Shown piece after piece: positions 435-19,618 of a stretch of 64,000 nt of DNA. The translations under genes were made by a program, and so were the position numbers. The notes beneath the pieces are model-generated. The model was not told the DNA's origin and ran no database searches. It saw only the letters and a program-made list of their open reading frames with translations. Source of the stretch: a bacterium (lineage in GTDB: Bacteria > Auribacterota > Tritonobacteria > UBA1439); assembly GCA_028716845.1 (NCBI GenBank), contig JAQUPF010000007.1, positions 1-64,000 of the forward strand, read 5' to 3'. Each line of letters starts with the position of its first letter. Position 1 is the stretch's first letter.

Positions 435-1433
435 ATGCAATTCCAGAATCCGGCATTCCTCGTCCTCATCCTCCTCGCCCCCGCCGCCGCGCTCGCGCGG
501 TCGAGGGCCCGCGGGGCCGCGGTGCGGTTCCCCGTCCTCGCCGGCCTCCGCCGGGTGCCGTCCTCCCGGCGGGCGCGGATCGGCCCGCGCCTCCTCGCCG
601 CGCTCTGGGCGGGCGCCGTCGCGTGCATCGCGCTCGCGCTCGCCCGCCCCGTGCGGGGGGCGGCGCACGCGAGGGTCTTCAGCGAGGGGATCGACATCGT
701 CCTCGCGCTCGACCTGTCCAGCAGCATGGATGCGCGGGACATGTCCCCCGATCTCCGCGTCAACCGGCTCGACGCCGCCCGGGAGGTCGTCAAGCGGTTC
801 ATCGCCGCGCGGCCGAACGACCGGATCGGCGTCGTCGCCTTCGCCCGGTACGCGTACACGCAGGCGCCGCTCACCCTCGACCACGAGGTGCTCGCCGGCC
901 TCGTGGACCGCCTCCGCATCGTCCCGCGGGGAGGGGAGGAGGACGGCACGGCGATCGGCTCGGCCATCATCACCGCCGCGGCGCGGCTGCGCGAGTCGGA
1001 GGCGACATCGAAGGTCATCATCCTCCTCACCGACGGCGTGAACAACTTCGGCGAGATCGGACCCGAGGACGCCGCCGAGGTCGCCCGAGCCCTCGGCATC
1101 AGGATCTACACGATCGGGGTCGGGACGAAGGGGACGGCGCCGTACCCGGTGCGGGTGGGCGGCCAGGTGCGCTTCGCGAGGGTCCAGGCCGACCTCGACG
1201 AGGAGGGGCTCGAGCGGGTCGCCGCCGCCACCGGCGGGCGGTACCACCACGCCCGGGACAAGGAGGCCCTCGGGGAGATCTACCGCCGGATCGACGAGAT
1301 GGAGCGGGTGCGCATCGAGGAGGAGAAGTACACGGAGTACAGCGACCTGTTCCCGTACGCGCTCCTCCCCGGCCTCGCCATGCTGCTGGCCGGCATCGCG
1401 CTCGAGGGGACGCTGCTCAGGAGGCTGCCGTAG
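435..1433 (+). CDS. batA: BatA-like VWA-domain membrane protein
   Basis: VWA MIDAS DLSSSMD, N- and C-terminal TM segments, first of tandem VWA genes. Confidence 0.9.
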   Translation: MQFQNPAFLVLILLAPAAALARSRARGAAVRFPVLAGLRRVPSSRRARIGPRLLAALWAGAVACIALALARPVRGAAHARVFSEGIDIVLALDLSSSMDARDMSPDLRVNRLDAAREVVKRFIAARPNDRIGVVAFARYAYTQAPLTLDHEVLAGLVDRLRIVPRGGEEDGTAIGSAIITAAARLRESEATSKVIILLTDGVNNFGEIGPEDAAEVARALGIRIYTIGVGTKGTAPYPVRVGGQVRFARVQADLDEEGLERVAAATGGRYHHARDKEALGEIYRRIDEMERVRIEEEKYTEYSDLFPYALLPGLAMLLAGIALEGTLLRRLP

Positions 1434-1434
1434 G

Positions 1435-2463
1435 ATGCACTGGGGATCGCCCTCGTTCCTCTGGCTGCTCGCGCTCGCCCCCGCGGTCGCCCTCTTCCTC
1501 CGGTGGGCCGACGGGCGGCGGCGGCGGGCCCTGGGCGTCTTCGCCGACGAGCCGCTCCACGGCGCGCTCATCCGGGGCACGCGCCGGGGCCTGCGGCGGG
1601 CGCGCGCCGCGGCGCTCGTCCTCGCCGTCGCGCTGGTCGCCGTCGCCCTCGCCGAGCCGAAGTGGGGCTACCGCTGGCGGCGGGTCGCGCGGCAGGGGAT
1701 CGACATCGTCATCGCCATCGACACGTCGAAGAGCATGCTCGCGACGGACGTGAAGCCGAGCCGGATCGAGCGGGCCCGGATGGAGGTGCGGGAGCTCATC
1801 GACCACCTCCGGGGCGACCGGGTGGCGATCATCGCGTTCGCCGGTGGCAGCCACGTCCTCTGTCCGCTCACGCTCGACTACCGGGCGGCGGAGCTCCTCC
1901 TCCGCGCCGTGCGGGTGGGGGGGGTGCCGCTCGGCGGGACGGACATCGCCGGCGCCGTCGACAAGGCGGTCCGGATGTTCGAGGGGAGCGAGCGGAAGCA
2001 CCGGGCGCTCGTCATCCTCTCCGACGGCGAGGACCACGGCGGCGACCTCCCCGCCGCCGCGGAGCGGGCGAGGGAACAGGGGGTCAGGATCTTCGCCGTC
2101 GGCATCGGCTCCGCCGGCGGGGAGCTCATCCCGGTCGAGGGCGCCGACGGCGGGAGGGAGTTCCTCAAGGACCGCGACGGCGCCGTCGTCCAGACGCGCC
2201 TCGACGAGCGCACCCTCCAGCACGCCGCGCTCGTCACCGGCGGGGCGTACGTCTATCCCGCCGGCGGCCGGCTCGGCCTCGTCGATCTCTACCGGGACAC
2301 CATCTCCGCGATGGAGAAGAAGGAACTCGGCGAGGCGCAGCGGAAGGTGTTCGAGAACAGGTACCAGTGGCCGCTCGCGGCGGCGCTCCTCCTGCTCTGC
2401 ATCGAGGCGGTCCTGCCGGCGGCGCGGCGCGGCGCCCGGCCGGAGGCGCGGGGGGCGGCCTGA
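1435..2463 (+). CDS. batB: BatB-like VWA-domain membrane protein
   Basis: MIDAS DTSKSM, paralogous to the preceding ORF, same operon. Confidence 0.9.
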   Translation: MHWGSPSFLWLLALAPAVALFLRWADGRRRRALGVFADEPLHGALIRGTRRGLRRARAAALVLAVALVAVALAEPKWGYRWRRVARQGIDIVIAIDTSKSMLATDVKPSRIERARMEVRELIDHLRGDRVAIIAFAGGSHVLCPLTLDYRAAELLLRAVRVGGVPLGGTDIAGAVDKAVRMFEGSERKHRALVILSDGEDHGGDLPAAAERAREQGVRIFAVGIGSAGGELIPVEGADGGREFLKDRDGAVVQTRLDERTLQHAALVTGGAYVYPAGGRLGLVDLYRDTISAMEKKELGEAQRKVFENRYQWPLAAALLLLCIEAVLPAARRGARPEARGAA

Positions 2464-3224
2464 TGAGGATCCGGGATCGCCTGGGCAGGGCGGCGGCGGT
2501 CGCACTCGCCCTCTCGTGCACGGCCTGGGCCGGGACGGCCGCGCGCCGGAACAGGGAGGGGACGGCGCTCTACGAGCGCGGCGAGTACGACCGGGCGCTC
2601 GAGAAGTTCACCGAGGCGACCGCGGACGCCCCGGAGCGGCCGGGGCTCATCTACAACATCGGGAACGTCCACTACCGGCAGTCGAAATACGACGACGCCG
2701 CCCGGTTGTTCGAGGGGGCGGCGGCCCGCGGCGATGCCCCGCTGCGGCAGCGGGCGTTCTACAACGCGGGGAACGCGAAATTCCGCTCCTGGCGGGAGGG
2801 GGGCGACAGGGGCCCCCTCCGCGAGGCGGCCGAGTTCTACATCCGGGCGCTCGAGATCGCGCCGGACGACGTGGACGCGAAATACAACCTCGAGCTCGCG
2901 CTCCGGGAGGCGGCCGAGGAGGAGCGGCAACGGGAGGAGCGGCCGGAGCAACAGGAGGGGGACGGGGAGGAGGGGGAGCGCGAGGAGGAGGAGCCGTCGC
3001 CCGGCGGGGAGGAAGAGGGGGAGCGGGAGGAGCAAGAGGAGGAAGAGGACCGCGGGGAGGAGGAGCCGCTCGAGTCGCCCGCCGGCGATCCGGAGGAGCG
3101 GGGTCTCACCGAGCGGGAGGCGGCCGAACTCATGCGGGCGCTGGAGCGGGAGGAGCGCGATCCGACCGATTTCATCCGGGCGCAGATACCGCCGGAGCCG
3201 AGGAGGGTGGAGAAGGATTGGTGA
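2463..3224 (+). CDS. batC: BatC-like TPR protein with Glu-rich tail
   Basis: ATG 2463 overlaps batB stop; TPR repeats then EEERQREERPEQQEGDGEEGEREEEE... acidic region. Confidence 0.8.
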   Translation: MRIRDRLGRAAAVALALSCTAWAGTAARRNREGTALYERGEYDRALEKFTEATADAPERPGLIYNIGNVHYRQSKYDDAARLFEGAAARGDAPLRQRAFYNAGNAKFRSWREGGDRGPLREAAEFYIRALEIAPDDVDAKYNLELALREAAEEERQREERPEQQEGDGEEGEREEEEPSPGGEEEGEREEQEEEEDRGEEEPLESPAGDPEERGLTEREAAELMRALEREERDPTDFIRAQIPPEPRRVEKDW

Positions 3225-3408
3225 GCACTACAGTTGAAAGGAGAAAGTTGAAAGTTCAATGCAATGGGGTCACCTTCACCATCAACGAAGGCCCGGACTG
3301 CCGTTGCTCGTTTATCGTTTCCCGGGGGAGCGGCTCGAGAGATAGAATAGGTGGTGGTTCCATGGCGTCATGCGAGATGATCAACATTCCGGCGGGTGCG
3401 TGCGGGTC

Positions 3409-5235
3409 ATGAGGGCGGGGAGCCGGCTGGTCGCGGCGCTCATCGCGGCGGCGGTCGCGGGGGACGCCGGGGCGGCCGAGATAGCGGCCTGGGCGAGCGC
3501 GCGGACGGTCGCCCTCGGCGAGCGGCTGGTGTTCAGCGTTCGGGTGTCGGGCGCCGAGCGGAGCGGCGCCCCCTCCCTTCCCGACCTCGACGGCTTCAGG
3601 TTGGCCGACACGGCCCACTCGACGCAGATCCAGATCGCCAACGGCGTCTCGTCCGTGAGCGCCCAGTACGACTACACCCTCGTCCCGCTCCGGACCGGGC
3701 GGCTGACCATCGGGCCGGTTCAGGTTGCGTACGGGGGCGGGACGCTCGCCACGGCGCCGGTGACGGTGGAGGTCGTCGAGACGGCCGACCGTGCCGCGCG
3801 CGCCGCGGCGGACGCGGCGGCCCCCGAACGGGCGGCCCGCGAGAACATGTTCGTCGAGCTCCTCGCCGACAAGGAGGAGGCCTATCTCCACGAGCAGGTC
3901 ACGCTCACCTTCAGGTTCCACCTCTCCGGCGTCAGCCTCGCCGAGCAGCCCTCCTACGAGCCGCCGCCCGCGGGCGGCTTCGTCGAGAAGCCGCTCGGCG
4001 CCGGCGGGAGCGCGAACTACGCGCGCGTCATCGGCGGCCGCCGCTACCAGGTGAGCGAGATCCAGACCGCCCTCTTCCCCTACCGGACGGGCGAGCTCGC
4101 CATCGGGCCGGCGCGCCTGTCGGGCGCCCTCCTCGAGGAGGCGCCGCGGCGGCGGACGGGATCGCGCGGGTTCTTCGACATCGACGATTTCTTCAGCGAC
4201 CCGTTCTTCGGGCGGTTCACGAGGAGGCCGTTCACGCTCCTCTCCAACGAGGTGAAGGTCAGGGTGAGGCCGCTCCCCGCCGAGGGCGCGCCGGCCGGCG
4301 AGGCGGCGGTCGGCCGGTACGCGATGGAGGTCGAGGCGAGGCCCCGCGAGGTGCGTGTCGGCGATCCGGTCACGGTGACGATGGTCGTGCGCGGCGAGGG
4401 GGATCTCGACAGGGTCCCGCCGCCGCGGATCGAGCGGCTCGACGGGTTCAAGAGCTACGACGTGACGAGCCGGACGGAGATGACGGGGCGGAGCGGCGTC
4501 ATCGAGGGGGTGAAGACGTTCGAGCAGGTCCTCGTGCCGCTCGATCCCGCGATCCGCGAGGTGCCGCCCGCCGTTTTCGACTCGTTCGATCCGAGGCGGG
4601 GGGCGTACGCCTCGCTCCGGGCGGGGCCCATCCCCCTCACGGTCCTCCCCGCGGAGGACGGCGACGCCGCGAAGCTCGTCAGTCTCCCTGCGGCATTCGA
4701 GGGGAGGCGGGTGGAGCTCCTCGAGCGGAACATCGTCTTCATCAAAACGGACCCGGGCGATCTCGCGAGGGAGCCGGGACGCCCGTCCGCGGTCTTCTGG
4801 ATCCTCCAGTGCGTCCCCCTCGCCCTCGTCCTTGCGGCCCTCGCCCACGCGCGACACGGGGAGCGGCTGCGGTCGGACCGCCGTTACGCGCGCCTGCACG
4901 GGGCCGGGAGGATGACCCGCCGCCGGCTCGCCGCCGCCCGGGCGGCGCTCGGGCAGGGGGATGTCGGCGGGTTCTACGGCGGCCTCGCGCGGGCGGTGAC
5001 GATGTACGTCGCCGACCGGATCGGCATCCCGACGGGCGGCCTCACCCCCGAGATCGTGCGCGAGCGGCTCCGCGAGCGGGGCATCCCCGCCGCGCTGCTC
5101 GACCGCGTCGACCGCTTCCTCCTCTCCTGCGAACGGGCGAGGTTCTCCCCGGGCGCCGGCGGCGCGGGCGAGACGGAGGCGGCCGCCGGCGAGGCGGCGG
5201 CCGTCATCGGCGAATTGCGGAGGAGCGGGCTGTGA
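3409..5235 (+). CDS. batD: BatD-like oxygen-tolerance family protein
   Basis: Signal peptide MRAGSRLVAALIAAAVAGDAGA; DUF7507/BatD-like beta domains; C-terminal TM; gene order. Confidence 0.85.
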   Translation: MRAGSRLVAALIAAAVAGDAGAAEIAAWASARTVALGERLVFSVRVSGAERSGAPSLPDLDGFRLADTAHSTQIQIANGVSSVSAQYDYTLVPLRTGRLTIGPVQVAYGGGTLATAPVTVEVVETADRAARAAADAAAPERAARENMFVELLADKEEAYLHEQVTLTFRFHLSGVSLAEQPSYEPPPAGGFVEKPLGAGGSANYARVIGGRRYQVSEIQTALFPYRTGELAIGPARLSGALLEEAPRRRTGSRGFFDIDDFFSDPFFGRFTRRPFTLLSNEVKVRVRPLPAEGAPAGEAAVGRYAMEVEARPREVRVGDPVTVTMVVRGEGDLDRVPPPRIERLDGFKSYDVTSRTEMTGRSGVIEGVKTFEQVLVPLDPAIREVPPAVFDSFDPRRGAYASLRAGPIPLTVLPAEDGDAAKLVSLPAAFEGRRVELLERNIVFIKTDPGDLAREPGRPSAVFWILQCVPLALVLAALAHARHGERLRSDRRYARLHGAGRMTRRRLAAARAALGQGDVGGFYGGLARAVTMYVADRIGIPTGGLTPEIVRERLRERGIPAALLDRVDRFLLSCERARFSPGAGGAGETEAAAGEAAAVIGELRRSGL

Positions 5236-12981: not shown

Positions 12982-13058
12982 GGGGACGTAGCTCAACTGG
13001 CTAGAGTATCGGACTGTCGATCCGAGGGTTGCGGGTTCGAGCCCCGTCGTCCCCGCCA
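12982..13058 (+). tRNA. tRNA-Asp (GTC)
   Basis: GGGGACG/CGTCCCC acceptor, loop CTGTCGA, encoded CCA. Confidence 0.95.
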
Positions 13059-13059
13059 G

Positions 13060-13097
13060 AAATCCGGTGAGGGGGACCATTCCCCCTCACCGGATTC
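13060..13097 (+). terminator. Inverted repeat just after tRNA-Asp
   Basis: AAATCCGGTGAGGGGGA-ccat-TCCCCCTCACCGGATT. Confidence 0.6.
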
Positions 13098-13099
13098 AT

Positions 13100-13202
13100 T
13101 GTGTGGACGGGGCGAGAACCCGCTTGCGGGTGAGCTTGTGCTGAGCGAAGCCCCAAACGGAGTGAGGGGCGCAGTCGAAGCAATCCCCGTCGTTCCCGCC
13201 AT
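13100..13202 (+). repeat. Copy A of a tRNA-tail-associated repeat (second copy near 20005-20106)
   Basis: gggcgagaacccgc..gggtgagcttgtgctgagcgaagcccc.aacggagtgaggggcgcagtcgaagcaa.ccccgtcg..cccgcca present at both places. Confidence 0.85.
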
Positions 13203-13386
13203 TACTACAGGGAGAAGGGATTAGGGGGAAAAGTAGTCCCCTAATCTCTAATCTCTTATACCTGTCTTTCCGAGATCTCGATTGCAGGCAGCTTCCTTGC
13301 TTGTCCCGAGCGTATCCGAGGGGGGCCTACCAAAGGGAGGTTGTCCAGATTTGACTGATATTTTCTATAGCCCTTTGGAAGCTATA

Positions 13387-13430
13387 CACCTTATAATGGG
13401 TGAAAATATGATTTCACCCTATACGAGGTG
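13387..13430 (+). promoter_or_regulatory. Pair of 16-bp palindromes upstream of the SatD-like gene
   Basis: CACCTTATAATGGGTG (13387-13402) and CACCCTATACGAGGTG (13415-13430); first contains TATAAT, second contains the SD-like GAGGTG. Confidence 0.75.
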
Positions 13431-13433
13431 TGC

Positions 13434-14105
13434 ATGAAGAATAGGCCTATCGCTGTCATAACTGCGGATATTGTGGGTTCAACGCGCCATGACACAAAGA
13501 ATCGAGAAATGCTTCGGCGTCTGGTGCAACGAGTGCTGAGTAAGATAAACAAGACGTATCAAAAAGAATTGGTTCTGCCGATTACGGTTACCCTGGGAGA
13601 TGAATTTCAGGGTGTCGTTTCCCCCCCTTGGAAAGCACTGACCCTGGCAGATCGTCTCCGCGGTTTGATGTGCTGTGGCGAAAAAAAATTGGCGGTCGAG
13701 CTCTATCTTTCTATCGGTATTGCACATGGCACTATTAAGAAAAAGCAGGAATCCAGGATGCAGGAAGGCATCGCCTTTTATCTCTCGCGCCGCGGCATTG
13801 ATGCTCTAAAAGAAAGCAGGTTCCGGAGAACGAAGTTGCTCACCCAGTCGGAAGATATTGATGAAGTGGCAGATCTGATTCTAAGTTATCAGGATATGAT
13901 CCTTTCTTCATGGACTCCAGCCCAATGGCAGGCTATCCTCATGAGAGATCAAGGATTAATTTTAAAGCATATCGGCAGGGGATTGGGAGTTGCTTATCAA
14001 AATATTCAAAAACGGCTAAAGGCCGCCAATTGGGAGTACTATATGCGGGGGAGATCCTACTTAACGGATCTACTCAGGAGGACACCCTTAAAAGGGTGTA
14101 TTTGA
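13434..14105 (+). CDS. SatD-family-like protein with C-terminal HTH-like segment
   Basis: AVITADIVGSTR N-terminus, TLGDEFQGV motif, C-terminal HIGRGLGVAYQNIQKRLKAANW. Confidence 0.7.
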   Translation: MKNRPIAVITADIVGSTRHDTKNREMLRRLVQRVLSKINKTYQKELVLPITVTLGDEFQGVVSPPWKALTLADRLRGLMCCGEKKLAVELYLSIGIAHGTIKKKQESRMQEGIAFYLSRRGIDALKESRFRRTKLLTQSEDIDEVADLILSYQDMILSSWTPAQWQAILMRDQGLILKHIGRGLGVAYQNIQKRLKAANWEYYMRGRSYLTDLLRRTPLKGCI

Positions 14106-14126
14106 AGATTCACCCTATATAAGGTG
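14083..14126 (+). promoter_or_regulatory. Second pair of 16-bp palindromes, upstream of the membrane gene
   Basis: CACCCTTAAAAGGGTG (14083-14098) and CACCCTATATAAGGTG (14111-14126); same 28-bp spacing as the first pair. Confidence 0.75.
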
Positions 14127-14139
14127 TACAGGTATCACT

Positions 14140-14505
14140 ATGAAGATAGTCTGGATCATCGCGAGTTATATTGTGGCATTATTTCCCGTCGGTTGGCTTA
14201 TCAATGCATTCCTATCACGTTACGAATTGGAGATCGAGCTAGAAAAGGGGTTGAAGAATGCTGGCAAATATATTGGCTTGCTGGAGCGATTTCTTATCGT
14301 CACATTAGTATGGGCAGGGGAAATATCAGCCGTAGGGTTTGTTATAGCGGCGAAATCAGTATTTAGGTTTGGTGAGATCAAAGATAAGGAGAACAGGAAA
14401 CTGGCTGAATATATTCTCATAGGGACTCTTGCAAGCTTTAGCCTTGCTCTGGCAATCGCATACATTTTTAGATGGATAAGTGTGGTGGGTAAAGCCGGGG
14501 CTTGA
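14140..14505 (+). CDS. Small membrane protein resembling the C-terminal half of DUF3307 proteins
   Basis: TM segments; LERFLIVTLVWAGEISAVGFVIAAKSVFRFGEIKD..AEYILIGTLASF. Confidence 0.6.
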   Translation: MKIVWIIASYIVALFPVGWLINAFLSRYELEIELEKGLKNAGKYIGLLERFLIVTLVWAGEISAVGFVIAAKSVFRFGEIKDKENRKLAEYILIGTLASFSLALAIAYIFRWISVVGKAGA

Positions 14506-14541
14506 CTTTTCCGCAGGGCCGATCTTCTCATACAATCCAAG

Positions 14542-15597
14542 GTGGGGTTCGACAAACTCAAGCGAGCCGGCTTCCTGGTTTATGTCCAACCAAGCGCACG
14601 CGGCATGAGTTATCCCTGTTTTGTCTCAGACTGCGATAACGGTTGCTCCATGGATGTGTTTAAAAAGGATGGCCAGTATTACGCCGTCTGCCCGGATGAC
14701 CGCATTGATCCCAAGCCCTTAACCGACGATGACATAGCCCGCTATCGCTTCAACTTGGATCCCCTGATAGAGAAAATCCGCAAGGCCAATGGCCTCGATG
14801 GAAGCGATTATTCATTGACGCCGCGCCTGTATTTCATCGGCGAGCGCCTCGTTTCCGACGTCAACACCGCCTTTGTCCTCGCTCTTTTCCCTGATATCGC
14901 CACCGCCGAGCCGCACCTTTTAAGCCTTTTGAGCAGGATTCCCTCGCATTGCCCCCAGACAGTCGTCGTCGCTCCCAGCTTATCCCTCACCTCCGAGCCG
15001 GTTTATTCCAAACTCATCTCTGCTGCGATATTCCCTGTTATTCTGCCGGGGGATTTCGGCAAAGGGGGATTCGGACTGAGCTACTTGGCGACAATGAGGA
15101 AGAAGATCCCGGTTGGCGCAGCGCCTAAGGTTTCTCCTCTGACGAAAAAGCAGGTTGCCGATAAAGAGAAATATGGGTATCGGTGTCAGGATCGAATTCA
15201 CATCCCCGGAACGACCCCGTCTGAGCGCAAGAACGAGGTTATAATCAACGGCCATAAGGTGTTTATCGGAGACAAGCTTTTCGCTCTCCTCTTGCGTTTG
15301 GTGGCGGAGCTTAAAAAAGGCAAGGGCGGCTGGATTGAAAGCGCCGATTTAGTGGCGGAACACTTCATCAACGACATCGAGCATCGCCAGCCCTTCAGCC
15401 ATCTCCGTCACGCTTTCAAGCCCTGGCTCATCGAAGGCGACGGGAAGCATCTGATCGAGTCCTCCCGCTCAAACCAATATCGCCTTTCCACCCATCCCGA
15501 ATTTGTTACCTGTGATATGAAGAAGCTACGAGCCCATCCTTATGACGACATAAAGAAACTTGCTGAAGCTTTACAGTCAGGAGTTTTTCAGAGATAG
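14542..15597 (+). CDS. Uncharacterised protein: N-terminal Cys cluster, C-terminal winged-helix-like region
   Basis: Long ORF (GTG start) in AT-rich island; YPCFVSDCDNGCSMDVFKKDGQYYAVC; C-terminal ..GHKVFIGDKLFALLLRLVAEL... Confidence 0.6.
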   Translation: MGFDKLKRAGFLVYVQPSARGMSYPCFVSDCDNGCSMDVFKKDGQYYAVCPDDRIDPKPLTDDDIARYRFNLDPLIEKIRKANGLDGSDYSLTPRLYFIGERLVSDVNTAFVLALFPDIATAEPHLLSLLSRIPSHCPQTVVVAPSLSLTSEPVYSKLISAAIFPVILPGDFGKGGFGLSYLATMRKKIPVGAAPKVSPLTKKQVADKEKYGYRCQDRIHIPGTTPSERKNEVIINGHKVFIGDKLFALLLRLVAELKKGKGGWIESADLVAEHFINDIEHRQPFSHLRHAFKPWLIEGDGKHLIESSRSNQYRLSTHPEFVTCDMKKLRAHPYDDIKKLAEALQSGVFQR

Positions 15598-15616
15598 TCG
15601 TTTTGGGAAGGAGTAT

Positions 15617-16336
15617 ATGAACATGAGCTTCTATGTTGAAATAATTAAGGCAGTTTCAATAATTACTGCATCAGCTACTGCGATTTACGGAGTTAACGCA
15701 TGGAGAAGAGAGTATGTAGGGAGACGCAGAATTGAATTGATCGAAGATGTTTTGACGCTTTTCTATGAAGCAAAATTAGCCATAAATTCTATAAGATGGT
15801 GTGTTCAGTTTGAAAATGAAGGTTCTTCCCGAAAGCCTAAGGAGGGCGAGACGCCGGAGGATAAGAAGGTACTGGATCTTGCCTATATTACTATAGAGCG
15901 GTATCTCAAACGCCAAGACCTTTTCGATAAGTTGTACGCATTGCGTTTTCGTTTTATGGCCTGTTTCGGGCGCCAAGTGGAAATACCTTTTCTTGATCTA
16001 AATAAAATCATTGGCGAAATTATGAATGCTTCACATGCGCTTGCACGACTATGGAAGCCTCCAAGTGATTCCCGCTCTATGACTGAGGATGCGATTAACA
16101 AAAGGGCAGAACAAATTCAGAAATATGAAGAAGTTATTTGGTGGAAAGGAACAAAACCTGAGGAAGATCCAATCGTTTTGCACCTTGACAGCATAATTAA
16201 AGAGATTGAAACGATCGCCGATAGATATATAAGGAGTGATATAGCTGCGAATAGGGCCATAAAAACACGATTGGCCGAGTTATCCGGCAAGATTAAGTCT
16301 GTTATTGAATGGTGCAAGAAGGCTCTGATGTCATAG
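15617..16336 (+). CDS. Uncharacterised N-terminally membrane-anchored helical protein
   Basis: One N-terminal TM (IIKAVSIITASATAIYGVNAW), RBS gggaaggag upstream. Confidence 0.6.
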   Translation: MNMSFYVEIIKAVSIITASATAIYGVNAWRREYVGRRRIELIEDVLTLFYEAKLAINSIRWCVQFENEGSSRKPKEGETPEDKKVLDLAYITIERYLKRQDLFDKLYALRFRFMACFGRQVEIPFLDLNKIIGEIMNASHALARLWKPPSDSRSMTEDAINKRAEQIQKYEEVIWWKGTKPEEDPIVLHLDSIIKEIETIADRYIRSDIAANRAIKTRLAELSGKIKSVIEWCKKALMS

Positions 16337-16371
16337 TGCGCCATGAAGCGATTGTTTCTAAAGGAATAGAC

Positions 16372-17718
16372 ATGAGTGAGATTGTAATTGATCCAAGAGA
16401 ATTTATTATGCCTCCGTATATTGACTGTCCTAAGTGCGGCAAGCAATTCTTTGGGGTCTTGATGATTTGTCCTGATAAGTATTTTCGGCGCTGCAAGAAT
16501 TGTTTTTACCCTCGTCCGAATGAATCTGGCATTAGCTATCCATTGCCTACCCTGAAAAAGAAGGTCATTTACATCGATCAATTTGCAATCAGCAATATGA
16601 TGCTGGCGCTTAATCCAGCTTCCAAGGCATTCCGAAAGGGAAATGTCGATCTTTTTTGGTCAATCCTTTTTGAAAAGTTAGATAGGCTGTGCAAGTTGCA
16701 GCTTATCGTCTGTCCAGATTCGAGTTATCATGCCAATGAATCTCTTGTGTCGCCATTTTATGCTGCGCTAAAGCGCATGTATGAGCAATTATCCTATGGC
16801 GTCTCATTTTATGCCTCAACGGAGATTAAGCTTCTCCAGATACATGAACATTGCACTCATTGGGCATCTGGCGACGCAGGAAAATCCCTAGATTTGGATG
16901 TAACAAGAGTTGTGAGCGGCGAGATTCATGCATGGCAAGAGAAGATGTATTTTTCAGTGAACATGTCATACAGTGAAGAAGATGCGGATGAAGTCAGAAA
17001 GGCTCGTGAAAGAATACATGTTGGTCTAGCCCGTGTTTTTCATCGTTGGCAGTCTGAAAAAGACAGGACATTCGATGATTGGTTTAATGAGGAAGCTTCT
17101 GCCTTTGGACAAGTTACCCTGCAAATCTTCAGAGATGCTGTGATACGGAGAGCCCGAATCCAGGCGGGTCAGATTGAGATGACAAGGAACGATCTCTATC
17201 CTCCTTATGAAGCCAGCGTTATCTTTACTATTCAAGATGTTCTCAAGGAACATGGGGTCCAACCATCGGAAATATGGCCTAAAACCATTGAGTATTTAAC
17301 ATCTCTTTATCTCAGAGATATCCCTTTTGTAAAGATCTCAAGTATGCTTGTTGCTGCCATTGCACGTAAGGCGGCATCGGGGATGAGAAAGCCGCCCAAT
17401 CAAGGTATGAATAATGATATAGGCGTAATTTCCGTTCTATTGCCGTATTGCGATGCCATGTTTATAGATAATCAATGTTGCTCTTTATTAAAGGAGAGAC
17501 CGCTTTGCGAGAGAATTGCTTATAACACGGATATATTTTGTCAGAATGCAAAAGATGATTTTATTTCATACTTGGATAGGATTGAGAAATCGGCTTCCCT
17601 CGGACATTTTACAAAAGTGAAAGAAGTATACGGTGATAATTGGCCGAAGCCGTACCATGCGCTCTATGAAGGAACCAAAGATCAAACCAACAAGAAAGGA
17701 GGAACTTATGTCGACTAA
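16372..17718 (+). CDS. Zinc-ribbon protein with PIN-like nuclease domain (putative)
   Basis: CPKCGKQ...CKNC ribbon; VIYIDQFAISN and NNDIGVISVLLPYCDAMFIDNQCCSLL resemble first and last acidic motifs of PIN-like domains. Confidence 0.55.
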   Translation: MSEIVIDPREFIMPPYIDCPKCGKQFFGVLMICPDKYFRRCKNCFYPRPNESGISYPLPTLKKKVIYIDQFAISNMMLALNPASKAFRKGNVDLFWSILFEKLDRLCKLQLIVCPDSSYHANESLVSPFYAALKRMYEQLSYGVSFYASTEIKLLQIHEHCTHWASGDAGKSLDLDVTRVVSGEIHAWQEKMYFSVNMSYSEEDADEVRKARERIHVGLARVFHRWQSEKDRTFDDWFNEEASAFGQVTLQIFRDAVIRRARIQAGQIEMTRNDLYPPYEASVIFTIQDVLKEHGVQPSEIWPKTIEYLTSLYLRDIPFVKISSMLVAAIARKAASGMRKPPNQGMNNDIGVISVLLPYCDAMFIDNQCCSLLKERPLCERIAYNTDIFCQNAKDDFISYLDRIEKSASLGHFTKVKEVYGDNWPKPYHALYEGTKDQTNKKGGTYVD

Positions 17719-18028
17719 GGCAACTCCGCCCAATGGGCATAGAAGGGTTTTGGAAAAATATGAGGCAATTTTGAGAGACCTAAGCAATGAAATCAATCAG
17801 CAACGAGAGTCCCTTGAGGCAGATAAGATTGAACGAGATATGTGGAAACTGTATCTGGCAACACAGAAGGCGCCTCCATGTTCACCTCAAACAGTGTATA
17901 CACCTATAGCGGATGAGGTGATTAGAAAAGCGGAAGTGGAAATAGCATCTAAAGAGCATGAACTTGCCTCTGTTTCATCGTTTGTAAGTTTCCTGAAGGA
18001 TTATTATCACAGAGAAGGATTACTATAG
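17708..18028 (+). CDS. Small coiled-coil hypothetical protein
   Basis: ATG overlaps end of preceding ORF; RBS aaaggagg; heptad-like helix. Confidence 0.6.
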   Translation: MSTKATPPNGHRRVLEKYEAILRDLSNEINQQRESLEADKIERDMWKLYLATQKAPPCSPQTVYTPIADEVIRKAEVEIASKEHELASVSSFVSFLKDYYHREGLL

Positions 18029-18056
18029 CCTATGAATTGACCATTATTACACGGTG

Positions 18057-18136
18057 GCCGTCCCGCACCGTATTGAAGGTTATCCTTAATACGTCAATAA
18101 TTGTCAACGCTCTGGGATATCCGTCATGCCCGCCAG
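18057..18136 (+). repeat. Dispersed repeat copy 1
   Basis: gccgtcccgcaccgtattgaaggttatccttaatacgtcaataattgtcaacgctctgggatatccgtcatgcccgccag. Confidence 0.9.
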
Positions 18137-18149
18137 ACTGATATCTCAG

Positions 18150-18635
18150 AGCGCGGGTAAAACCGCGCTCCGGGATACATTTAGACGGGTCGTAAACAAG
18201 GGCTAAATCATCGCTCAGATGGTTTAGCCCTATTTTTATGCTCTCCTCCCCGAGGTCCGCCCGCACCAGCACCAGCCGCATGAGCTCCCGCTGCTCGTAG
18301 GGTTTTATCCTGTTGAAGCACTCGTCAAATTGCTTCAAGCCCTCCCTGAGCGCATCCTCGTCAATCGCCTTCCGCTCAATCCTTTCAATCTGCCTGTCCA
18401 TTCCGCTGAGCGACTTCTCGATCTCCTCGCGCTTCCGGCCGAGCTCGTCAAGCTCCTCCCTCACGAACACCATCCCCGGCCCGCTGTCCCCAGGCACGAG
18501 CCGCTCCATGATCACCCTTGCCTGCTGTTTCAGGCCTTCCAGCTCCCTCGCCTGGAAGCGCCGCCGCTTGTAAAGCTCCGGCAGCTCCACCTTCAACCGC
18601 TTGTTGTTCTCCTTTACGAGCGTCCTCGGGAACAA
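18150..18635 (-). pseudogene. C-terminal fragment of a large serine recombinase
   Basis: ...EEIEKSLSGMDRQIERIERKAIDEDALREGLKQFDECFNRIKPYEQRELMRLVLVRADLGEESIKIGL; catalytic domain absent; truncated at the RAYT-element end. Confidence 0.65.
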
Positions 18636-18638
18636 CCG

Positions 18639-19289
18639 GGGTCAGACCTCTACTATTGACTAAAATGCGGCAGGTGGTATGATTGCAGCATGGCACGGCC
18701 ATTGAGGATCGAATATCCGGGGGCATGGTACCACGTCAGCAGCCGCGGGAACGAGCGAGGGAGGATATTCGGGGACGACAAGGACAGGCTGCGGTTTCTA
18801 GAGGCATTAGAAGAGAGCATCGAGAAGTTCGAGGTGGAAGTGCATTGCTACGTACTGATGGGCAATCACTTCCACTTTCTGTTGAGGACGCTGAAGGCGA
18901 ACCTGAGCAGGTTCATGCAGCGGTTCAACACGGCCTACACGGCATACTACAATCTGCGGCACCGCCGTGCAGGGCATCTGTATCAGGGGAGGTTCAAGGC
19001 GATCGTGGTGGAGGCGGATGAGTGCCTGAAGGATCTGAGCCGGTATCTGCACCTGAACCCGGTGCGGCTGAAGAAGTACAAGGAGCTGACGGTCGAGGAG
19101 AAGGCGAGGATACTGAAAGCGTACAGGCGGAGCAGCCTGCCGGGGTATATAGGATCAGGGAAGCGGGATGAATTCGTGAAGTATGATGCGGTGTTGGACT
19201 ATGCGGAAACGCATGTTGAAGGACAGGAGATTATCGAGGCGGGTAGAGAAGATTCACAAACTCTTTAGTCAATAGTAGAGGTCTGACCC
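18639..19289 (+). mobile_element. RAYT-type element with 26-bp terminal inverted repeats
   Basis: GGGTCAGACCTCTACTATTGACTAAA (18639-18664) and its exact reverse complement (19264-19289) bracket a Y1-type transposase gene. Confidence 0.9.
18690..19268 (+). CDS. REP-associated tyrosine transposase (Y1_Tnp), apparently C-terminally shortened
   Basis: MARPLRIEYPGAWYHVSSRGN...CYVLMGNHFHFLLRT...GHLYQGRFKAIVVE. Confidence 0.9.
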   Translation: MARPLRIEYPGAWYHVSSRGNERGRIFGDDKDRLRFLEALEESIEKFEVEVHCYVLMGNHFHFLLRTLKANLSRFMQRFNTAYTAYYNLRHRRAGHLYQGRFKAIVVEADECLKDLSRYLHLNPVRLKKYKELTVEEKARILKAYRRSSLPGYIGSGKRDEFVKYDAVLDYAETHVEGQEIIEAGREDSQTL

Positions 19290-19408
19290 TGTTGTTTTTG
19301 GCGCTAACGAGTTATGAAAGAGGACATTTCTAACGAGCTTTGACAATCCTGGAAGATTGTCTTGAGCGATATGTCACTTTAAGGCATACTAGTAATGGAG
19401 GTGAGCAT

Positions 19409-19618
19409 ATGACCTTCAAAACATTTACTGCTGTCCTTCATAAAGAAGCAGATATCTATGTCGCCGAATGCCCCGAAATCGGCACGGTAAGCCAGGGACA
19501 CAGCATCGAGGATGCAATCGCCAATCTCAAAGAAGCGACCGAGCTTTACCTCGAAGAATTCCCCCTTCCTGAGACGAGCCACCCCCTTGTGACCTCTTTC
19601 GAGGTTGCGCATGCCTAA
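19409..19618 (+). CDS. hicB: HicB-family antitoxin
   Basis: MTFKTFTAVLHKEADIYVAECPEIGTVSQGHSIEDAIANLKEATELYLEE. Confidence 0.9.
   Translation: MTFKTFTAVLHKEADIYVAECPEIGTVSQGHSIEDAIANLKEATELYLEEFPLPETSHPLVTSFEVAHA

Follow-up and report, generated by a model that had tools for sequence, protein, structure and literature searches.

Two pairs of 16-bp palindromes with the same internal spacing are found around a satD-like gene in the window, the 64,000-nucleotide stretch of an Auribacterota contig (JAQUPF010000007.1) analyzed here. One pair stands before this gene and the other before the gene of its membrane partner. The question raised by this locus is which factor reads these palindromes and what they control. 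We have no binding data. The answer which the comparative evidence makes likely is that they are the local version of a switch by which SatD controls itself, spread over many bacterial phyla.

Paired palindromes at the satD locus

The original prediction, made from sequence alone, had proposed four 16-mers with a 28-bp spacing in both pairs. This held, and all four lie at the positions it gave (Table 1). The four sites are CACC-N8-GGTG palindromes, with start-to-start distances of 28 bp in each pair; the palindromic core is CACC...GGTG and symmetry of the inner bases is only partial. The second pair had been placed before the membrane gene, which is correct with one qualification: O3 overlaps the 3' end of satD (stop codon at 14103-14105) and hence precedes the membrane gene from within the satD coding sequence, not from an intergenic region. 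Its bases also encode conserved C-terminal PLKG residues of SatD. In the loci L017/L028 and L216 the third site takes in part or all of the satD stop codon (1344-1346 in L028).

Table 1. Coordinates of the features discussed, in positions of the window.
Feature	Positions	Strand	Description and basis
Putative operator site O1	13387..13402	.	CACCTTATAATGGGTG; sequence match and genome-wide double-site search
Putative operator site O2	13415..13430	.	CACCCTATACGAGGTG; 28 bp from O1; conserved in relatives
satD-like gene	13434..14105	+	223 aa from ATG; PF16264 E 2.5e-18
Predicted HTH segment of SatD (residues 162-197)	13917..14024	+	DSSP helices in model; base-3 covariation
Predicted recognition helix (residues 188-197)	13995-14024	+	includes K193 and R194
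Putative operator site O3	14083..14098	.	CACCCTTAAAAGGGTG; within the last satD codons, encodes ..TPLKG..
Putative operator site O4	14111..14126	.	CACCCTATATAAGGTG; 28 bp from O3; between satD and the membrane gene, just upstream of the latter
Membrane partner	14140..14505	+	121 aa; four helices in model; own-profile match to full-length partners

Two further claims, a TATAAT sequence in one site and a Shine-Dalgarno-like GAGGTG in the gene-proximal site, were also confirmed. A perfect -10 hexamer TATAAT is located at 13392-13397 inside O1, and a promoter-like TATACA-N18-TATGAT (13383-13412) extends across O1 and the interval separating it from O2. The end of O2 is 3 bp away from the satD ATG, and the GAGGTG of O2 doubles as a Shine-Dalgarno-like stretch. 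An alternative GTG start at 13428, inside O2, would extend the protein to 225 aa.

The degenerate pattern CACCYTNNNNNRRGTG, allowing at most one mismatch, has 16 matches in the window where 3.65 are expected, a number reached by no shuffle. The double site CACC-N8-GGTG-N12-CACC-N8-GGTG occurs without mismatches at these two places only in the 2.68-Mb genome, and all other listed double-site matches require 3 mismatches. Single CACC-N8-GGTG sites are frequent (about 108 per genome); since single sites are common and double sites are not, pairing is the special feature. Random scattering of the motif over the genome, which would have refuted the original prediction, was therefore not found for the exact double site, which is confined to this locus.

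One alternative is that the repeats act in RNA, as hairpins attenuating transcription or hiding ribosome-binding sites. O2 overlaps the Shine-Dalgarno region, and O3 and O4 lie at the end of or between genes, as this explanation would have it. Against it, O1 holds the -10 hexamer and would stay untranscribed from that promoter, the sites of other clades reach to about -90 from the start codon, and a fixed centre spacing of 28 or 29 bp is unexpected for hairpins. We regard the RNA explanation as very unlikely. Hairpins were also rejected as candidates on folding, as the predicted RNA structures do not exceed shuffles in stability (z -0.54 and -1.07).

SatD matches were detected in four of 44 searched genomes of the window's phylum, one of them labelled Candidatus Auribacterota. 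A relative with a 77% identical SatD keeps all four sites, with pairs before both genes, and one from another family of the phylum (53% identity) keeps three, the fourth being degenerate (CTCCCCTTAGGGGGTG). O1 is identical to that of the window in L017/L028 and reads CACCCTAATATGGGTG in L018/L029. The second pair at the satD stop is also present in L017, L018 and the Acidobacteriota locus L216. In L216, SatD has 33% identity, and CACC operators 28 bp apart stand before satD and again at its stop codon. A search upstream of orthologous gene pairs, the check proposed for the original prediction, thus found the motif in orthologues and, as described below, across the SatD family.

In the window tRNA-Val and then tRNA-Asp(gtc) stand before satD, which begins shortly after the latter (12982-13434), and the same order was observed in G006, a genome from another family of the phylum (L022, 8920-9830). 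This shared order could be old synteny, or insertion may have happened repeatedly at this tRNA. GC content is 0.40-0.57 over positions 13000-19500, down from 0.69-0.76 at 11.0-12.5 kb, giving an island-like appearance. ORFs at 14542-18025 (351, 258, 469 and 131 aa) have no Pfam match, and a REP-associated tyrosine transposase gene is present at 18690-19268. G006 carries a second, divergent satD (L024, G006:C199) with a TTGCA-type operator of 29-bp spacing, for which an ORF scan at the locus found no downstream partner of at least 60 aa.

Tandem geometry across the SatD family

The wider SatD set was assembled from a species-genome scan and from PF16264 searches in Bacteroidota, Actinomycetota, Pseudomonadota, Acidobacteriota and Spirochaetota; Firmicutes, including the Streptococcus type member, are outside this sample. 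It comprised 172 proteins, 137 at <70% identity, and 136 of these had enough upstream sequence. In each of these regions, all pairs of similar palindromes were scored as a function of their separation.

Of the 136 satD upstream regions, 87 contain 14-18-bp palindromes arranged in tandem with a centre-to-centre distance of exactly 28 or 29 bp. Such pairs were found in 2/225 upstream regions of other ORFs at the same loci, in 1/136 satD gene bodies and in about none of the shuffles, and other centre distances in satD upstream regions accounted for 2-6 of 136 each. Broken down by distance, a 28-bp spacing was seen at 49 loci and a 29-bp spacing at 45, whereas shuffles gave 0.0 and neighbouring distances 0-4. 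Additional peaks at 56, 57 and 58 bp represent third copies, and loci carry 2 to 5 palindromes. The window pair has a score of 16, just below the strict threshold; a slightly looser threshold admits the window and one further relative.

Pairs with this spacing were present in Bacteroidota (66/83 loci), Actinomycetota (7/21), Pseudomonadota (5/10) and Acidobacteriota (4/8), with single positive loci in Spirochaetota, Calditrichota and Auribacterota. In about a third of the loci, mostly from divergent clades, the threshold applied reveals no clear pair. The pair is absent in Caldisericota, Planctomycetota, Verrucomicrobiota and one Chlorobiota representative, and mostly absent in Calditrichota. 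Examples from Bacteroidota are TTGCA-N7-TGCAA, TTGTA-N7-TACAA, TTTCA-N7-TGAAA and TTTCC-N7-GGAAA; Actinomycetota provide TGAAG-N7-CTTCA, Pseudomonadota GAACC-N6-GGTTC as well as GACCC-N6-GGGTC, and Auribacterota and Acidobacteriota L216 CACCY-N6-RGGTG. The half-site varies by clade and the 28/29-bp spacing stays. The analysis goes beyond the original prediction at this point: CACC is the sequence of one clade and the tandem geometry is general. Whole-genome searches of six Bacteroidota found the double TTTCA operator, exact or with one mismatch, at one place in each genome.

The tandem palindromes could instead be iterons, partition sites or recombination sites of a mobile element. The window locus adjoins tRNA-Asp in a low-GC stretch, and satD is patchy among genomes and present on plasmids. 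However, the sites stay with the satD start codon in many phyla and on many chromosomes, among differing neighbours, and they have no tie to replication or recombination genes. A role as mobile-element sites is consequently very unlikely in our view, and operators remain the preferred reading.

The centre of the proximal site has a median position of -26 from the start codon (IQR -44 to -15), and in most loci this site overlaps the promoter, the ribosome-binding site or the start codon. Since this is the usual position for repression, repression by SatD is favoured. Another possibility is that SatD binds and activates, or toggles between activation and repression with its nucleotide state. Distal sites lie around -60 to -90 in many loci and a nucleotide-binding fold could drive such a switch. 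The placement of the proximal site is, however, typical of repression, and we consider activation or such a switch unlikely.

New data came from 20 Bacteroidota DUF3307 genes (L223-L242) in genomes without a Pfam-detected satD. A divergent SatD was identified just upstream in 20/20 of these loci using a family HMM (E 2e-30 to 2e-59), and 18/20 of these newly fetched loci have a 28/29 pair with a score of 18-20. Given that PF16264 missed SatD in all 20, the protein is probably much more common than annotated. Pfam-detectable satD is present in about 22% of sampled Bacteroidota genomes; a spirochaete survey gave SatD in 1/198 genomes, and a scan of viral contigs found no SatD relative. On plasmids the 28/29 operator was detected in 2/4 distinct loci (five loci, two of them near-identical from Salinivibrio), with perfect 28-bp pairs in Vibrio lentus (three copies) and Pseudoalteromonas. 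The sites are degenerate in the two Salinivibrio loci, and no pair was found in the Segatella plasmid locus. The Vibrio lentus locus (L219), on the conjugative plasmid p1, carries a satD-DUF3307 pair and three TAGCC-N6-GGCTA palindromes 28 bp apart. In the high-GC Blastococcus locus L037, the SatD match lies within a 1242-codon stop-to-stop frame (850-4576), which is probably an open-frame effect and not a fusion.

SatD, its recognition helix and the membrane partner

The window SatD matches PF16264 with 66.9 bits (cut-off 29) over model positions 2-211 of 211, and the same model is matched by 59/60 aligned members of the SatD family. Its AF2 model has a pLDDT of 95.4. HTH, sigma-70 region 4 or GerE models match SatD family members, and DSSP assigns helices H177-184 and H188-197 in the model, K193 being in the second HTH helix.

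A relationship of the N-domain to nucleotide cyclases was not part of the original prediction. In Foldseek searches the best match was Rv1900c (1ybu, E 9.1e-5), followed by CyaC and Ma1120, at a TM-score of about 0.5 by target length and, for Ma1120, an rmsd of 3.3-3.7 A over about 130 columns. A profile search gave 1ybt at E 2.1e-5, with DIVGS and GDEFQG of SatD aligned to DIVGST and GDGFVA. D12 and D56 are invariant in 129/129 sequences and align with DIVGST and the GD of Rv1900c. The Arg-119 column is 67% Arg, and the position four residues before, which we take to be the site of the usual transition-state Asn, is F, L or W and not Asn. Modeling thus predicts that SatD combines a class III nucleotide-cyclase-like N-domain with a C-terminal HTH; cyclase activity and nucleotide binding are not shown. 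The invariant metal-site aspartates suggest that this domain may bind or turn over nucleotides, an inference from fold and aspartates only.

If SatD reads the palindromes, its recognition helix should change with them. Plain mutual information over all alignment columns was discarded as a measure: N-domain columns scored as high as HTH columns, and the measure is confounded by shared ancestry. The replacement tests control for N-domain distance and use a tree of the N-domain alone. The K193-aligned column shows a partial r of 0.82 with half-site base 3, compared to 0.18 for the best N-domain column. Among 47 proteins with an aromatic-[RK]-[RK] motif, Arg in this column goes with G in 20/21 and Lys with T or A in 26/26. 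Taken together this is 46/47, and the half-site of the one exception, L050, had been mis-called and in fact reads TTGCA. Operator sequence covaries with the SatD recognition helix; direct binding is not shown.

Several limits apply to this result. The residue in the K193 column changes 11 times on the N-domain tree. All three independent pairs on strongly supported branches are concordant, which gives p 0.25 and is too few for significance alone; phylogenetic support rests on the 11 less well-supported changes. At half-site bases other than base 3, several columns of the N-domain show correlations too, which we attribute to shared ancestry. The covariation is not significant when only even-length operators are considered, and the contacts in the window's own clade are therefore inferred from the rest of the family.

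It could be argued that a different transcription factor, for example of PadR or GntR type, binds the sites and that SatD is merely its target. Known PadR and GntR sites are also palindromes of about 16 bp, many families use such sites, and genomes generally encode many HTH regulators. We looked for a conserved regulator among the neighbouring genes and found none; the genes upstream of satD differ by clade, and therefore no other regulator is a constant companion. Such a factor would also have to account for sites whose changes between clades follow the recognition helix of SatD but, at base 3, not its N-domain, and for exact double sites at satD only. We find this alternative very unlikely. 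Autoregulation by the HTH protein, as originally predicted, is supported by the family-wide motif and the helix covariation, in the absence of binding data.

An ORF with at least two predicted TM stretches follows satD in 109/131 loci, and its start usually overlaps or abuts the satD stop. Full-length satD partners in other loci match PF11750 (DUF3307), and PGAP names agree on plasmids. The window partner (AF2 pLDDT 89.9) has no PF11750 match, the DUF3307 domain itself being absent. Its own profile matches the full-length partners L019/L023 (E 1.5e-25), aligning to their C-terminal part only, and it retains the GxxIGxLER...AAKSxxRF...AEYxLIGTL region of that part alone. A PDB fold search with the partner gave no match (best E 0.68).

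A proposed self-control switch and comparison with known systems

We propose that SatD is a dedicated autorepressor of satD and its membrane partner, acting via its own palindromes, a reading which we consider likely (probability roughly 0.83). The data show the sites with their geometry and conservation, their restriction to the satD locus and the operator-helix covariation; physical binding, repression as opposed to activation, and cooperativity are inferred. The HTHs of a SatD dimer would read both half-sites of each palindrome, and adjacent dimers would sit in tandem 28-29 bp apart on the 2-5 copies, probably cooperatively. Covering the promoter, ribosome-binding site and start codon, they would repress satD and the co-expressed membrane gene. 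The second pair before the membrane gene in the Auribacterota clade and Acidobacteriota L216 may represent an extra, independent control point. A step of 28/29 bp is about 2.7 helical turns and may bring neighbouring dimers into contact, possibly via their cyclase-like domains; such domains dimerise in known cyclases. A nucleotide ligand or product would be the obvious candidate for the relieving signal, again by inference.

A bolder reading, which we hold to be less likely than not, would have SatD act together with its DUF3307-type partner as a toxin-antitoxin-like or guard module of wide distribution; toxicity of the partner is hypothetical. A nucleotide-binding or nucleotide-making SatD would silence transcription via the 28/29-bp operators and restrain the membrane effector, which would be released on loss of SatD or of its nucleotide state. 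Streptococcus pyogenes strains of types emm1, emm28 and emm49 cannot do without satD, but the gene occurs in only about 71% of genomes of the species (PMC11323703). A gene essential where present but dispensable species-wide is the pattern expected if SatD is a repressor or antitoxin and its loss frees a harmful partner, and we regard this as an indirect lead. The module might explain this puzzling essential-but-accessory status.

PF16264 and DUF3307 are uncharacterised families found in many phyla. The literature searched describes no operator, DNA binding or cyclase relationship for SatD, and on SatD regulation or DUF3307 function only mentions of expression, proteome and essentiality were relevant. 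Our results offer a first mechanistic handle in the form of a predicted DNA-binding activity, predicted clade-specific operators, a residue-to-base rule and a likely nucleotide-linked sensor domain.

Among known families, the window protein matches SatD (PF16264; Streptococcus 'secretion and acid tolerance' D) over its whole length. DUF3307 (PF11750) is the domain of full-length satD partners elsewhere, and the window partner corresponds to their C-terminal region only. The fold and two aspartates are common to SatD and class III nucleotidyl cyclases (Rv1900c CHD 1ybt/1ybu, Ma1120, CyaC); in SatD, unlike in these, the N-domain is fused to an HTH. Panoptes (mCpol and 2TM-beta) and Pycsar resemble the satD locus in having a cyclase-type gene beside a membrane-protein gene, and Panoptes works like a toxin-antitoxin pair of a nucleotide-cyclase-type enzyme and a membrane toxin (PMC12657230), a precedent for the logic of the module suggested above. 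PADLOC models for Panoptes/Pycsar-type defence matched neither SatD nor its partner, and no HTH or operator of the SatD kind is described for mCpol in PMC12657230. Tandem-palindrome autorepressors, as a general kind, are like SatD as proposed here in being small HTH proteins with sites over their own promoter and start and in controlling themselves and one partner. SatD differs from them in following one spacing rule (28/29 bp) across phyla with a half-site that diverges with the HTH, and in having a sensor-like domain with a predicted nucleotide-cyclase fold.
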